From Robiginitomaculum antarcticum DSM 21748 (GTDB lineage: Bacteria; Pseudomonadota; Alphaproteobacteria; Caulobacterales; Maricaulaceae): a DNA stretch of 64,000 nucleotides. Under the pieces are notes generated by a model. The model saw only the letters and a list, made by a program, of their open reading frames with translations, searched no databases and was not told the DNA's origin. This document shows, in pieces, positions 24,144 through 29,920 of this stretch; within the stretch, counting starts at the first letter, position 1; each line of letters begins with the position of its first letter. The stretch lies in assembly GCF_000365025.1 (NCBI RefSeq), contig NZ_KB823011.1, positions 950,621-1,014,620 of the forward strand, in the 5' to 3' direction. Both the position numbers and the translations under genes were made by a program.

Positions 24144-25014
24144 AGCAGCCCTGACCGTCAGGATCGGTTTTTTTATCTGTCCATAGAATCGCATTTGCAA
24201 TCAGTTTGCGCACATAGGGCATATCATAGGCCGTATCTTGGTGGCCAAGAGCGGAATAAACAGCCCGGCCAGCCCGGACGCATCGCGCCCATGCGACGGG
24301 ATGGGCGATCGGGCCTTTACCGTCTTTATCCATAATGAGGTTAGAATTGCCATATGACCTGTTCACGGGACTATATGTGCTCTCGTCAACGCCGAGAAGG
24401 ACAATTTGGCCGAAATTCTGCGCGGGCGCGTCAAATGAATACCATTCTTCATTATGCACCCATTCTGACGGAAGGCCGTCCATAACGGGATGTTGGGGGT
24501 TCAAATTTTCAAGCCGCGCATCTTGGAATTGGGGATCTGCGGGATGGTTGGTGAATGTACTGCCCAGCAAAGTCTGAGAATACCATGGCCAGTCCGTGTG
24601 GCTGCTATCCCCGGCGCCGTGCAGCCCAACCCAAGCTCCGCCCGCCTCCAGCCAGTTTTTAAAGGCCGCCTCCTCATCCGGTGTCAGAGCATCCCCTGTG
24701 ACATTATTGAAGACAACAACGTTAAAACGCGACAGGCTTTGGGCGTTAAATACGGCGCTGTTTTCCGTCGTGAATACGCCGTAACCCAGCTCCCGCCCGG
24801 TCTCGATCATATAGAGGTCAGCGCCCGCAATACCTTCTTCGTGACGCCACTGCTGTGTCTCGGAGAAAACGAGTATAGACGGCTCAGCCATATATTCGCT
24901 GATTTTAGGCGGTGGCGTGTCAAAGGCGACAATATCGCGATCAATGACCGTTACGGCGCAGGCGCCAAGAGACAGAGCGAGTACGGAGCAAATCAGAAAT
25001 GTTTTCATTCCCAT
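24127..25014 (-). CDS. ThuA-domain lipoprotein
   Basis: A 295-residue protein of the ThuA-like family, with a class I amidotransferase-like fold. A signal MGMKTFLICSVLALSLGACAV gives a lipobox GAC, so it is probably a periplasmic-facing lipoprotein. Domain motifs: ILVFSETQQWRHE, AVFNAQSLSRFNVVVFNNVTGDALTPDEEAAFKNWLEAGGAWVGLHGAGDSSH, LNPQHPVMDGLPSEWVHNEEWY and PVAWARCVRAGRAVYSALGHQ. ThuA domains are linked with sugar metabolism in rhizobia; the function here is unknown. The start 25014 is supported by GGGG seven bases upstream. Confidence 0.85.
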   Translation of the reverse strand: MGMKTFLICSVLALSLGACAVTVIDRDIVAFDTPPPKISEYMAEPSILVFSETQQWRHEEGIAGADLYMIETGRELGYGVFTTENSAVFNAQSLSRFNVVVFNNVTGDALTPDEEAAFKNWLEAGGAWVGLHGAGDSSHTDWPWYSQTLLGSTFTNHPADPQFQDARLENLNPQHPVMDGLPSEWVHNEEWYSFDAPAQNFGQIVLLGVDESTYSPVNRSYGNSNLIMDKDGKGPIAHPVAWARCVRAGRAVYSALGHQDTAYDMPYVRKLIANAILWTDKKTDPDGQGCFNAGG

Positions 25015-25162
25015 TCTGTGCCCCAAATATTGCAGCATGCCAAGACGCTCAATTCATTCATTTGGCCTGTATTTTTTAGGGGATAACCTACCCGCATGCT
25101 TGCAGAGAGGGCGAGGCCCCCTTACCTATGCAAAAACGCAATTGCTAAATGAGACTGTTTCT

Positions 25163-26128
25163 ATGCCCGCGACCCACCACCACAAAGTTATTGTTATCGG
25201 CTCCGGCCCCGCCGGATATACTGCGGCAGTATATGCCGCGCGCGCTATGCTTGAGCCGGCCATTATCGCCGGCCTGCAGCCCGGGGGGCAGCTGACCATC
25301 ACAACCGATGTTGAAAACTATCCTGGTTTTCCTGAAATATTAGGCCCCGAGCTGATGGACAAGTTCAAAGAACACGCCCTAAAATTTGGCACAAAGTTCT
25401 ACGAAGACGTCATTATCGACGTCGATTTCTCTGTCCGTCCTTTTAAGATGACGGGCGATAGCGGCGACACCTATACCGCTGATTCCGTCATCATCGCCAC
25501 CGGGGCGCAGGCCAAATGGCTCGGCCTGCCGTCCGAGGACTATTTCCAGGGCTTTGGCGTATCGGCGTGCGCGACATGTGATGGTTTTTTCTATCGCGGC
25601 AAAGAGGTCTTTGTTATTGGCGGCGGCAATACGGCTGTTGAAGAGGCCCTCTTTCTAACTAACTTTGCATCCAAAGTGACGCTTGTGCATCGCCGCGATA
25701 GCCTGCGCGCAGAGAAAATCCTGCAAAACCGTTTGTTTGATAATCCCAAAGTTGAAATCTTATGGGATACAACACTGGAAGAAATTCTGGGCGACACGGA
25801 TCCCAAAGGCGTCACAGGCGTACGCCTTAAAAACGCCCATACCGGCGAAGAATTTACCCGCGATACACATGGGGTTTTCATTGCCATCGGCCATAAGCCA
25901 TCGACCGAAGTCTTTAAAGGCCACGTCAAAATGAATGATGGCGGATACATCACCACGGCTCCCGACAGTACCCGGACCAATATTCCCGGCGTCTTTGCCG
26001 CGGGAGATGTATCCGATGAGGAATGGCGGCAAGCCGTAACAGCGGCCGGACTTGGGTGCATGGGCGCGCTGGAAGCGGAACGCTATCTGGCGGAAAAAGA
26101 GGCGGGGCATAAAGCCGCCGCCGAATAA
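25163..26128 (+). CDS. trxB: Thioredoxin-disulfide reductase
   Basis: TrxB reduces thioredoxin with NADPH through FAD and a redox-active disulfide. The 321-residue protein has the FAD-binding KVIVIGSGPAGYTAAVYAARA, LQPGGQLTITTDVENYPGF, the active-site Cys136-Ala-Thr-Cys139 in SACATCDGFFYRG, the NADPH-binding VFVIGGGNTAVEEA and HRRDSLRAE, and the C-terminal FAAGDVSDEEWRQAVTAAGLGCMGA. The ATG at 25163 gives the standard N-terminus; upstream in-frame ATGs would run back through the ThuA promoter. A LysR gene follows 14 bp downstream. Confidence 0.96.
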   Translation: MPATHHHKVIVIGSGPAGYTAAVYAARAMLEPAIIAGLQPGGQLTITTDVENYPGFPEILGPELMDKFKEHALKFGTKFYEDVIIDVDFSVRPFKMTGDSGDTYTADSVIIATGAQAKWLGLPSEDYFQGFGVSACATCDGFFYRGKEVFVIGGGNTAVEEALFLTNFASKVTLVHRRDSLRAEKILQNRLFDNPKVEILWDTTLEEILGDTDPKGVTGVRLKNAHTGEEFTRDTHGVFIAIGHKPSTEVFKGHVKMNDGGYITTAPDSTRTNIPGVFAAGDVSDEEWRQAVTAAGLGCMGALEAERYLAEKEAGHKAAAE

Positions 26129-26142
26129 ATTAAAGGCCGATT

Positions 26143-27057
26143 ATGCCGCTAACGCTAGATTGGGACAAGCTGAAAACCTTTCACGCTGCGGCGGAGGCAG
26201 GATCGCTCACCGGCGCGGCAGAGCGGCTGGAGATTTCTCAGTCCGCCGTTAGCCGCCAGATAAGCGCGCTGGAACACAGCCTAGCAACGCCTGTTTTTCA
26301 CCGTCATGCACGAGGCCTAACGCTTACGGAGCAAGGCCGTATTCTTTATGCGGCAGCCGACGAAATGGCCCACCGCGCGGCGCTCGCTGTGGCCACTGTC
26401 AAAGATAGCCGCGATAAACCTCAAGGCACATTGCGCGTTTCGACTCCCATTTCACTTGGTGCAAACTGGCTGACGTCGGTCTTACCGGAATTTTTAAAAG
26501 CTTATCCTTTGATCAATGTCGAGCTGTACCTTGAAGATGAAGAACATGACCTCGCGGCATTTGATGTCGATTGCGCGCTGCGGCCGTGGCCAAGCACGCA
26601 GGGCGATGTCATAGAGCGCCGTCTCGGTACGATTTCGCAGAGCCTGTATGCGTCCCAGACCTATCTTGCGCAGCGCGGCGCACCCCGAACTGTCGAAGAT
26701 CTTGATAATCATGATCTGGTCGCCTTTGGTAAATTAATGCCTTCGCGGCTAAACAGTGCAAACTGGATTTTGAGTTTGGGACGCGAAGAGGGAGAGACTG
26801 CGCGCCAACCTATTCTCGCCGTGAACAATCTTCACGGCATTATGCGTGCGGCCGAGGCCGGAATGGGGATAGTGGGTATTCCCGATTATATGACGGCTAT
26901 GAGCCGCAGACTCGTCCGCGTTTTGCCGCAAATTTCCGGTACACCCTTTGATGTCTTCTTTGTCTACCCCGCCGAGCTTCGCGGATCCGTCAGAGCAAAA
27001 GTGTTTCGCGATTTTCTGGTGCGGGTCAGTAAAGGCTGGCGGCAATCCCCGATATAA
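26143..27057 (+). CDS. LysR-family transcriptional regulator
   Basis: A 304-residue LysR protein. The N-terminal helix-turn-helix is LDWDKLKTFHAAAEAGSLTGAAERLEISQSAVSRQISALEH, and the effector domain starts near residue 92 with GTLRVSTPISLGANWLTSVLPEF. It follows trxB by 14 bp on the same strand, a pairing frequent in alphaproteobacteria, so it is probably co-transcribed; its target is not obvious. Regulators normally sit divergent from their targets, so here trxB itself is not a clear target. Confidence 0.92.
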   Translation: MPLTLDWDKLKTFHAAAEAGSLTGAAERLEISQSAVSRQISALEHSLATPVFHRHARGLTLTEQGRILYAAADEMAHRAALAVATVKDSRDKPQGTLRVSTPISLGANWLTSVLPEFLKAYPLINVELYLEDEEHDLAAFDVDCALRPWPSTQGDVIERRLGTISQSLYASQTYLAQRGAPRTVEDLDNHDLVAFGKLMPSRLNSANWILSLGREEGETARQPILAVNNLHGIMRAAEAGMGIVGIPDYMTAMSRRLVRVLPQISGTPFDVFFVYPAELRGSVRAKVFRDFLVRVSKGWRQSPI

Positions 27058-27060
27058 GCC

Positions 27061-27082
27061 CGAGCTATGCGTAAGTGCATAG
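27061..27082. repeat. Intergenic palindromic motif, copy 1
   Basis: The palindrome CTATGC-GTAAGT-GCATAG (27065-27082) with 5' flank CGAG lies directly after the LysR stop. A 22-bp window matches a second copy at 49762-49783 in 19 of 22 positions. Both sit in gene-free DNA, so a shared protein-binding site is plausible. Confidence 0.4.
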
Positions 27083-27130
27083 GAGCCGTGAAGCTATAGG
27101 CCTGCACTTCTACGGCGAGCGCGCTATATA

Positions 27131-27248
27131 GAGAGGGTCAACACAAGAGATATCCCCCTTAAGTGTTTGAGTACCGCATACATATTCCTCCCCGAATGGT
27201 ATAGCGAAGACTAGGCCCGGCTTCTTAGGAAGACCGGGCTTTTTTTTG
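27131..27248 (+). ncRNA. Candidate trans-acting sRNA or leader RNA with two C-rich hairpin loops
   Basis: Between lysR and the hybrid kinase lies a compact non-coding unit. A -10-like TATATA (27125-27130) precedes it. Stem 1 pairs TCAACAC (27138-27144) with GTGTTTGA (27163-27170) and exposes CCCCC in its loop. Stem 2 pairs GCATAC and ATTC (27176-27187) with GAAT and GTATAGC (27194-27205), with loop CTCCCC. It ends in the terminator at 27215-27247. Stem-loops exposing C-rich loops followed by a terminator are typical of alphaproteobacterial sRNAs that pair with ribosome binding sites. The exact 5' end is unknown, and an attenuating leader of the kinase gene is an alternative. Confidence 0.6.
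27215..27247 (+). terminator. Strong rho-independent terminator
   Basis: GCCCGG (27215-27220) pairs with CCGGGC (27234-27239), extended by an inner TCTT/AAGA stem, and is followed by eight Ts. It ends the candidate sRNA and lies about 57 bases before the kinase GTG start. Confidence 0.92.
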
Positions 27249-27304
27249 GCAAATTCTTAACACTGTATGTGCCACATTGGCTTACCTATGCTCCCGGGGG
27301 TCGC

Positions 27305-29920
27305 GTGAAAAACTCGAAATACAAACAAGAACTTGCCGCTGAGTATCTTGATATACTTGATAATTATCTCACGTTCGGAGTCAGCATTATTGACCCTGAT
27401 ATGAATTATGAATTTATCAGCCGAAAAACTTATGATAATCTCGGGATAACCCCTGAACAGCTTAAAGCCGGAGATCCGCTGTCTCGGTGTCATGAGCTTA
27501 TGGTCGCAAACGGTCTGCTGACGCCTGACATGATCGCCCAACAGAGATTATCGGACGAACACCAAAAGCAACGCGCTCAAACAGGACGTGATATGGCATC
27601 CAATATCGTTCGACTGGGCAATGGTACAGCGCATCGGTTTACCCGAAAGGCCCTGCCGGATGGCCGCACCGTCTCCATCAGTGATGATGTGACTGAACTC
27701 GTCACTGTCAACGAAATGCTCCATCAAGCCCTTGCACTCGGAAATGCCGGCTATTGGGTTTATGATATCGCCAATAAGACATATGAGCTCAGTGATACAT
27801 TGCAGTATTATTTTTCAAAAGAAGATCAAGAACTGATCCACAGCAAGGGTATTATCGCAATCGTTCACCCGGATGACCGTCCGGCAATGCGCGAGGCGCT
27901 CAAAAATATATCCAAAACAGATGACAGATTTTCAGTCACTTGTCGGTCAAACACTTACAAAGGCAATCAGCGTTGGAGTGACACAACGGGACAAATCATC
28001 CGAAATGCTGAAGGTAAACCCGTCAAAATTAGAGCTTTTGTGCAGGACATTACCCGCGACCGGCGTCAGTCAGTTGAACTTGAGCGCGCCAAAGATGAAG
28101 CTATTGCCGCCTCTAAAGCTAAGTCAGAATTTTTAGCCAATATGAGCCATGAAATCCGTACGCCTATGAACGGTGTCCTTGGTATGGCGGAGCTGCTTGC
28201 ACAGACGGAAATCAATGACCGGCAGCGTGAATATATCAATGTCATAACCAATTCCAGTCAAGCGCTTCTGACAATTATAAACGATATTTTGGATTTTTCG
28301 AAAATTGAAGCCGGGGCATTTCAACTTGACCCCACAGCTTTCAACCTGCGCGAAGCGATAGATGATGTCATGTCACTGGTCTCCAGCCGCGCTGTTGAAA
28401 AAAATCTTGAATTAATTGTTAATTATTCACCTTCGCTGCCCCGAAACTTTCTCGGTGATCCGGGACGGATACGTCAGGTTATGATCAATCTTCTAGGCAA
28501 CGCCATTAAGTTTACCCAAGAAGGCCATGTTTTATTAAATGTCTCAGTTTTTCAAGGAAAAGACGGCATTGCCAATATCCGTATTGAAGTAAAAGATACC
28601 GGTATTGGCATTGAACGCGACAAGATTGAAACTGTCTTTCAAAAATTCACGCAGGCCGACAATAGCACCACACGTCTATATGGCGGCACAGGACTTGGTC
28701 TGTCCATCTCGCGCCGTATAGTAGAATTGATGAACGGTAAAATGTGGGTCGAATCCACATTTGGGCAAGGCTCAACATTTTATTTTGATATGCATTTGCC
28801 GATTGATACGCAGGCCCGCACCGGACCGCGTAATGCTGATCCTGTAATGGGCAAACGGGCGCTTATAATTGATGACATTGAAGTAAATAGAAAAATTTTG
28901 CTGGAGCGCTGCGCGAGTTGGAAAATGCAAAGCTGCGCCGTTAAAGACGGAATTGATGCTGTAACCGAGCTTGAACGCGCGATAGATGCCGGACACCCCT
29001 ATGACATCATTATTTCGGACTATTTAATGCCCGGAATGAATGGTCAGGAAATGGCGACCGTGATTGCCGCGAACAATAAAATCGCAGGAACACCAATTAT
29101 TATGCTCTCATCTTGTGACCAGCCGGTAAGCAGTCAGGAATTATCAACAATTGGCATTACCCAATATCTTGTAAAACCTGTGCGGGAACAGCGTTTGCTT
29201 GACGCACTTTGCCAAAATATTCTTGAAGTTAGTCAGAATGTTTCCGAGCAAAAACCTGAGCCGGAACCCTCTTCACTGCCTACCGCTAAAGAGCCCTCTG
29301 CGCCGTCAGAAGCTAAAACGATGGCGACAAATATTCAGCAGCGGGACGACATACAAAGTACATTAAAAGAAATTGAAGCTGTGCTCGACGCTGTTAAAAC
29401 ACACAGCACTACCTCTGTTGATGAGGCCTCAGACTCGCAGCTCATTGTGCCTCAGCCTGTCTCTCTTGAGATGAGTTCAAATCCGATTAAAGCGTCCCCG
29501 CGCGTTTCGGGTCGCAAAATTTCGATATTGGTCGCCGAAGACTTCCCGCTCAATCAGGACGTGGTACGCTTGATGTTGCAGGACACAAAATATGCTCCCA
29601 CATTTGCGAATAATGGCCAAGACGCTGTCAGGGAGTTCAAAGACGACCCTGATAAATACCGTGCGATTTTAATGGATATCTCCATGCCTGTTATGGACGG
29701 ATACGAAGCCGCAGAAACAATCCATGCCTATCAAAAATTAATCGGCCAAGAGCCTATTCCGATTGTCGCGCTGACTGGACATGCTTTGAAACATGACCGC
29801 GAAAAGTGTCTGGATTCATCTATGTGCGACTACCTCACCAAACCGGTAAAGCAAGAAAAGCTCATCGCAACTCTCGATCATTGGATCATGGGCACGCCGA
29901 TGCAACAGAAACGTGCATAG
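27305..29920 (+). CDS. Hybrid sensor histidine kinase with two receiver domains
   Basis: An 871-residue two-component hybrid. The N-terminus holds two PAS-like domains: residues about 12-130 ([20 protein letters not shown]) and about 140-260 ([14 protein letters not shown]...[23 protein letters not shown]). The HisKA domain has phospho-acceptor His282 in [19 protein letters not shown]. The ATPase domain has [21 protein letters not shown] and [14 protein letters not shown]. Two receivers follow: phospho-Asp572 ([13 protein letters not shown]) and Asp791 ([15 protein letters not shown]). No Hpt domain is present, so phosphorelay needs a separate Hpt protein. No transmembrane segment is seen. 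The GTG start at 27305 is preferred for its GGGGG upstream, over GTG 27269; start confidence is modest. Confidence 0.93.

Follow-up and report, generated by a model that had tools for sequence, protein, structure and literature searches.

The window analysed here, a stretch of 64,000 nucleotides of Robiginitomaculum antarcticum DNA, contains a run of + strand genes that enclose a non-coding interval. The gene trxB, encoding a thioredoxin-disulfide reductase, lies at 24917–26128, where TIGR01292 matches residues 90–391 of the product with 409.2 bits (cut-off 343.45); its start codon is uncertain. It is followed by a gene for a LysR-type regulator (26143–27057) and, after the non-coding interval, by a hybrid histidine kinase (27305–29920) in which Pfam recognises PAS, HisKA and HATPase_c domains and two receiver matches. 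The interval between the LysR stop codon at 27057 and the GTG start of the kinase at 27305 carries an sRNA-like element on the + strand.

The regulator finds its best PDB match in 9hh1 (9e-80; next PDB protein 2e-30), the LsrB protein of A. tumefaciens deposited with PMC11975290. In the reverse direction, A. tumefaciens LsrB used as a query in the R. antarcticum genome returns the window gene at 1.9e-80 and the next LysR protein at 9.2e-27. By these reciprocal best hits the LysR gene is an ortholog of A. tumefaciens lsrB/vtlR. That trxB is followed by an LsrB/VtlR ortholog, an arrangement shared with the rhizobial abcR1 locus, is the main clue to the nature of the element, and it was absent from the first-pass annotation of this DNA. 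The cysteines of A. tumefaciens LsrB are C144, C236, C244 and C273, and a change of C273 made that bacterium sensitive to H2O2 (PMC11975290), whereas the window protein has a single Cys, C144, and lacks C273. With only one Cys no intra-monomer disulfide can be formed; therefore, the signal may differ, and a disulfide redox switch for the window LsrB, in which C236 and C244 are absent as well, was dropped from consideration.

The predicted small RNA and its conservation

Positions 27136–27248 read as a small RNA gene with two hairpins bearing C-rich loops and an intrinsic terminator. The 5' end, estimated at 7 bases past the -10 element, likely lies near 27136 rather than at 27131, which gives a predicted length of about 112 nt. 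Stem-loop 1 (SL1, 27138–27170) is a weak hairpin in the window, and its loop AUAUCCCC (27150–27157) provides the first putative anti-Shine–Dalgarno (anti-SD) motif. Stem-loop 2 (SL2, 27175–27206) displays the second motif, CUCCCC, in its loop at 27188–27193. The sequence GCGAAGACT (27204–27212), made up of the 3' strand of the SL2 base together with the adjoining linker, is invariant across the 14 loci aligned below and is replaced by GCGATGACT at loci L049, L058 and L059. The Rho-independent terminator (27215–27247) consists of a 10-bp stem with one bulge (27215–27239) followed by eight T (27240–27247), and its sequence varies from locus to locus. The fold of 27131–27248 reaches -38.5 kcal/mol (z -3.27), a stability equalled by 1 of 200 shuffles, and blastn finds one copy of the element in the genome. 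The first-pass annotation had described a -10-like box, two stem-loops exposing C-rich sequences, the second of them CTCCCC, and a distance of 57 bases from the terminator end to the kinase start, and all of these are present. It had also called the terminator strong; the hairpin and the T-run are indeed there, although the stem is bulged and a simple consensus promoter/terminator scan of 26900–27500 reported nothing. The element itself proved real, and its span is corrected at the 5' end.

Conservation among relatives confirms the earlier observation as a whole. A blastn query with 27100–27310 against 60 relatives recovered the element in 13, namely in 5/5 genomes of the genus, 8/31 of the rest of the family and 0/24 of other families of the order. 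An alignment of SL2 and the linker behind it from 14 copies (A3) contains 11 SL2 pairs that are standard in 99.3% of cells, with changes on both sides in four pairs. The covariation score of A3 is 0.224 against 0.104 for shuffled alignments, none of 500 shuffles scores as high, and slid controls are at most 44.6% paired. Among 116 family genomes of 80% completeness or more, a covariance model built on the SL2 hairpin (R1) finds SL2 in 45, the own genome included. Over the order, R1 matches 37 of 348 genomes at E<=0.05, 30 of them within the family; the seven matches in other families are all weak (20.7–23.5 bits), and four of the 30 family matches are equally weak.

Most comparisons below refer to a set of 45 loci composed of the window, L002–L005 from less complete genomes and L045–L084; four family genomes with an R1 match (G123, G124, G129 and G131) lie outside it. 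SL2 is paired in 95.2% of cells of this set, with a covariation score of 0.333 against 0.128 and again no shuffle of 500 as high, fractions that are not probabilities because the copies are related. Six pairs are changed on both sides, a count that adds nothing here because 72 of 500 shuffles reach it. The SL2 stem covaries, in 14 as in 45 copies, and a lack of compensatory changes across relatives, which the first-pass annotation had named as evidence against the element, is not what was found.

SL1 is more variable. When any TCCC was accepted as a C-rich loop, a stem of 4 bp or longer carrying one was detected in 40/45 loci and in 48 of 900 mononucleotide shuffles; the loci without one are L003, L046, L061, L069 and L084, of which L003 and L069 belong to the window's own genus. 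The SL1 region contains TCCTCCC or TCCCTCCC in 26/45 loci. RNAalifold returned no structure for 15 SL1 copies picked from these 26 (alignment A5), because alignment gaps shift the 3' arm; therefore, the support for SL1 comes from single-sequence folds compared with mononucleotide shuffles. In one genus, g7 (L050, L051, L056 and L061), hairpin 2 takes a variant form containing CTCCTCCTCCCCC; neither trxB nor the kinase was found alongside these copies, nor was lsrB at L051.

A pattern describing SL2 only, of which neither the terminator nor lsrB was a part, matched 55 stretches in a collection of genome contigs. Forty-six of them were assigned to this group, by the titles Robiginitomaculum, Hellea, Litorimonas, Algimonas and uncultured Caulobacterales, together with L089, L099 and L132. 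Each of the 46 is followed by a T-run no more than 60 bases away and preceded by lsrB at a distance of up to 400 bases, and they are not an independent sample because many of the contigs share genomes with R1 hits; among the nine matches from other phyla or classes, a T-run follows in one and lsrB precedes none. NCBI taxonomy places the genus Robiginitomaculum in Robiginitomaculaceae, Maricaulales. The element was not found by blastn against plasmids, and the pattern matched no viral contig.

Promoter region and neighbouring genes

In S. meliloti, the abcR1 promoter has been described as having the sigma-70 core CTTGAC-N17-CTATAT and, between -61 and -49, the LsrB box GCAT-N3-TG-N3-T (PMC8844928, section 5). 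The window has an exact CTATAT (27124–27129) and, with a spacer of 16, a weak -35-like CTGCAC (27102–27107) that agrees with CTTGAC in 4/6 bases. Upstream lies the palindrome TATGC-N6-GCATA (27066–27081), proposed as the LsrB site, and overlapping it a putative LsrB box, GCAT-N3-(T)G-N3-T (27077–27089), that matches 6/7 bases of the consensus of PMC8844928 (section 5). When one mismatch per half and spacings of 4–7 were allowed, and the transcription start of each locus was counted as 7 bases past its best CTATAT match, the palindrome was found in 44/45 loci. It lies at -71/-72 in 32/45, the window included, and its GCAT half at -60/-61 likewise in 32/45. The remaining 13 loci, where the palindrome is missing or away from this spacing, are explained in part by the choice of the -10 as the best match, a pick that is doubtful at, e.g., L068 and L077. 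The best LsrB-box match has at most one mismatch in 40/45 loci, compared with 114 of 900 shuffles, and this best match is not always the one in register. The intergenic DNA around the palindrome varies, whereas the distance from palindrome to -10 is constant in those 32 loci.

A positive control was provided by a search for LsrB at E<=1e-125, which selected one of 387 genomes (93% identity; locus L225). Behind this lsrB gene lie two matches to ar15, the Rfam family of AbcR1/AbcR2 (RF02345), with 127 and 119 bits. A palindrome TATGC-N7-GCATA stands at -73 and an LsrB box at -61 from the first of them; neither an exact CTTGAC nor an exact CTATAT was found at this locus.

The gene order upstream is well preserved. 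Searches with the window proteins (tblastn) placed a LysR gene upstream on the same strand in 44/45 loci, the exception being L051, with the LysR match ending 114–202 bases ahead of the SL2 hairpin. trxB precedes lsrB in 40/45 loci; it was not found at L002, where the contig begins, nor at L050, L051, L056 and L061, and a gap of 853 bases occurs at L057. In 12 further family loci (L179–L190), trxB was not seen next to lsrB in the flanks.

Downstream, the kinase was found by tblastn in 37/45 loci, the window included, and a receiver-domain match alone at L048. No kinase match was obtained at L049, L050, L051, L056, L058, L059 and L061; the absence at L049 is not judgeable, as its contig ends 472 bases on, and the other six loci are covered for 2.2–4.0 kb. 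According to mechanical ORF calls, the next listed ORF lies on the opposite strand at L051, L058, L059 and L061 (401–612 codons) and at L050 (191 codons), and on the same strand at L056 (202 codons). The hybrid kinase is not judged to be part of the sRNA unit. Its persistence behind the sRNA in the window and 36 relatives is an observation in its own right, and a functional link, as a target or a co-regulated gene, is possible.

Relation to AbcR1 and alternative readings

In A. tumefaciens, vtlR stands between trxB, on its upstream side, and the tandem genes abcR1 and abcR2 on its downstream side (PMC7486931). Both in this species and in S. meliloti, abcR1 comes next after lsrB and is activated by LsrB (PMC7486931, PMC8844928), and AbcR1 has been described as requiring LsrB and its region as syntenic across alphaproteobacteria (PMC8844928, whose supplement compares the promoters of predicted homologs from several of them). 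The window element occupies the same locus, directly behind lsrB/vtlR as in the 44 loci above and in the control L225, with trxB in front both in the window, by TIGR01292, and in the 40 loci noted. It shares with AbcR1 the register of the upstream GCAT half and, with AbcR in general, a 5' hairpin with an anti-SD loop, a second C-rich motif, a terminator and a length of about 112 nt. Unlike the tandem pair, it is present as a single copy. The second anti-SD motif of AbcR lies between the hairpins (PMC5461406, PMC8844928), in a single-stranded linker, whereas the second motif of the window element is predicted to occupy a highly conserved, covarying hairpin loop of its own.

This difference is accompanied by a lack of matches to the ar15 model, for which membership was set at 40 bits or more with RF02345. 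The first-pass annotation had proposed a covariance search against Rfam, and scans of the window at the gathering thresholds and at E<=10 yielded no convincing family for the element: ar15 was absent at gathering and not listed at E<=10, where a weak match could be hidden under suhB because both belong to the same clan. A direct RF02345 search of the genome gave none at E<=0.01. Over 241 genomes of the class, the model produced three sub-threshold matches (G475, G514 and G440), which in G475 and G514 lie on a different contig from the lsrB match, and all three were treated as chance. By locus, regulator and promoter, the element is thus best described as a counterpart of AbcR1, an AbcR-like variant that is not a member of ar15 as modelled.

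Taken together, the element is probably a trans-acting and presumably Hfq-dependent sRNA, the counterpart of rhizobial AbcR1 at the trxB–lsrB locus, that would be controlled by LsrB and pair with Shine–Dalgarno regions; this reading is tempered because only 32/45 loci are in exact register and SL1 varies. A trans-acting sRNA was one of the two readings offered by the first-pass annotation, and it is supported by the covariation, the conservation and the conserved promoter region. The other, an attenuating leader at which transcription stops at 27247 or continues into the hybrid kinase, with the loops acting as a sensor, fares poorly. In 37/45 loci the kinase lies behind the element on the same strand, and the short distance between terminator end and kinase start in the window would suit such a leader. 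However, six of the 45 loci have enough DNA and no such kinase, four of these (L051, L058, L059 and L061) continue with a long ORF on the opposite strand, and the kinase-less loci still keep the hairpin and the T-run, which makes a kinase leader highly improbable.

The element could also be an independent sRNA of ar8/MmgR (SisA) or SorX type that lies at the lsrB locus by chance and is not a counterpart of AbcR. The C-rich anti-SD core and the terminator are common to the element and to SisA-D/MmgR (ar8, RF00519), ar8 and ar15 belong to one Rfam clan (CL00108), other lsrB-downstream regions give sub-threshold SorX and suhB matches with no ar15 listed, and a weak suhB match lies behind the lsrB ortholog of genome G037. 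Nevertheless, the suhB score of the window element, 14.5 bits, is far below the gathering threshold of 41, no SorX match is listed for the window, and the promoter palindrome is common to the window and the ar15 locus L225. Moreover, published descriptions give ar8 a single-stranded core and place most of its copies beside an FGase gene (PMC12559287, section 7), and SorX of Rhodobacter (RF02784) is processed out of the 3' UTR belonging to an OmpR-like gene (PMC6238624); an origin of this type appears very unlikely. A further reading keeps the trans-acting anti-SD sRNA and removes LsrB from its expression, the synteny being inherited and the regulation diverged. Under the conditions of PMC7486931 no LsrB control of abcR was seen in S. 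meliloti, contrary to the control of AbcR1 found in PMC8844928; the single mismatch of the window box and the single Cys of the regulator, whose signal may differ, point in the same direction. The constant spacing between palindrome and -10, set within variable intergenic DNA, argues against such a loss of control, and we consider it unlikely.

Some observations on other families stand beside this comparison. At lsrB-downstream loci of other alphaproteobacteria (L145, L146, L147, L150, L154, L158 and L167), acgtCTCCCagacgtgaagCCTCCctgt-like or related elements occur together with a terminator, and the SorX model scores 35.0–43.2 bits there (cut-off 46.6). At L147 (2815–2904), a long near-perfect inverted repeat, probably a repeat element, attracts sub-threshold microRNA matches that are surely false. 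The G037 match (G037:C1:1531501-1531594, 26.5 bits) lies 140 bases behind an lsrB ortholog of another family and hints at a possible relationship between ar8 and lsrB-linked RNAs. The R. antarcticum genome has no suhB/ar8 match at E<=0.01, though ar8 has been reported from nearly all members of the class (PMC12559287, section 7). Among the titles and abstracts listed by a literature search, none dealt with an LsrB-linked RNA from outside the rhizobia, and no claim is made that none is published. A C-rich loop also occurs in a relative, in the sRNA GsrN of Caulobacter.

Candidate targets and distribution in Alphaproteobacteria

By analogy with the rhizobial work, LsrB would bind the palindrome and activate transcription of an RNA of about 112 nt exposing two C-rich loops, and this RNA would be bound by Hfq. 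The loops could then base-pair at ribosome-binding sites of the GGGGAGG type and reduce translation of the mRNAs concerned, which perhaps encode envelope and uptake proteins. The genome contains hfq, and the stability of AbcR1/2 in S. meliloti requires Hfq (PMC3712013). A genome-wide count gave 21 matches to GGGGAGG-N3-9-ATG and four to the reversed pattern, an excess that is only partly informative because the pattern resembles a Shine–Dalgarno site. Of the 21, two fall at one place on the antisense of the sRNA itself, and eight were judged plausible starts, each leading into an ORF longer than 100 codons with no more than 41 codons open ahead of it. These candidates comprise HupE/UreJ, TatD, PepSY_TM, a beta-lactamase-family protein, DUF1761, a CarboxypepD_reg protein with a below-cut-off match to an outer-membrane barrel, and two proteins without a Pfam match. 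Target prediction, as suggested in the first-pass annotation, thus supplies eight candidate ribosome sites with GGGGAGG, among which no ABC transporter was recognised and transporter-type proteins are few. Duplexes of SL2 with the eight are predicted at -15.5 to -17.8 kcal/mol, whereas 53 ORF starts of the window have a median of -7.1; this strength is to be expected because the candidates were chosen for the motif.

The regulator is widespread. The window LsrB has a match at <=1e-60 in 116 of 193 class genomes (those at least 95% complete, with G440 outside), one each except in G413 (two) and G589 (three), and a match in 60 of 100 genomes of the order; the 40 without one are all 20 of family f3, probably Caulobacteraceae, and all 20 of family f5. 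These counts disagree with PMC11975290 (section 31), where LsrB is called exclusive to Rhizobiales from a comparison of a few named species. The 450 bases downstream of 59 LysR loci were then compared, 29 being the best class matches besides the own one and 30 coming from the order, with the own one included; the loci were ranked by regulator similarity, do not form an even sample and leave family f2 outside. Two C-rich motifs with a terminator occur in 16/29 class and 14/30 order loci and a strict palindrome in 12/29 and 7/30, whereas 177 mononucleotide-shuffled regions contain neither. In the order set, 13/19 loci of the window's family show the RNA signature, compared with 1/11 of family f4, where the one locus, L195, is also the only one of the 11 with trxB beside lsrB. 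An Rfam scan of 17 of these loci at E<=0.5 listed no ar15 and several sub-threshold SorX and suhB matches, with the reservation that suhB, which shares clan CL00108 with ar15, could mask a weaker ar15 match. Behind lsrB in the family members L181, L182 and L187, another CCTCCCC stretch was noted within or beside a terminator-like hairpin.

Tentatively, and with slightly less than even confidence, lsrB followed by an anti-SD sRNA, often with trxB in front, could be an old unit of the class Alphaproteobacteria rather than a rhizobial one. LsrB and the palindrome would have been kept while the RNA was re-folded by lineage, as ar15 in rhizobia, as a short CUCCC hairpin with a linker elsewhere and as the double-loop form here, and two families of the order, one probably Caulobacteraceae, would be without an LsrB ortholog. 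The signature in only 1/11 f4 loci tempers this class-wide reading, and the missing LsrB in those two families would explain why work on Caulobacter overlooked the unit. If the interpretation is correct, the LsrB/VtlR and AbcR circuit of rhizobial virulence and symbiosis would also operate in marine bacteria outside Rhizobiales, and the restriction of LsrB to Rhizobiales stated in PMC11975290 (section 31) would be corrected. A sequence model such as Rfam ar15 could then overlook counterparts that locus and promoter reveal, and the two forms of the RNA would offer a natural comparison between two ways of displaying the second anti-SD motif.
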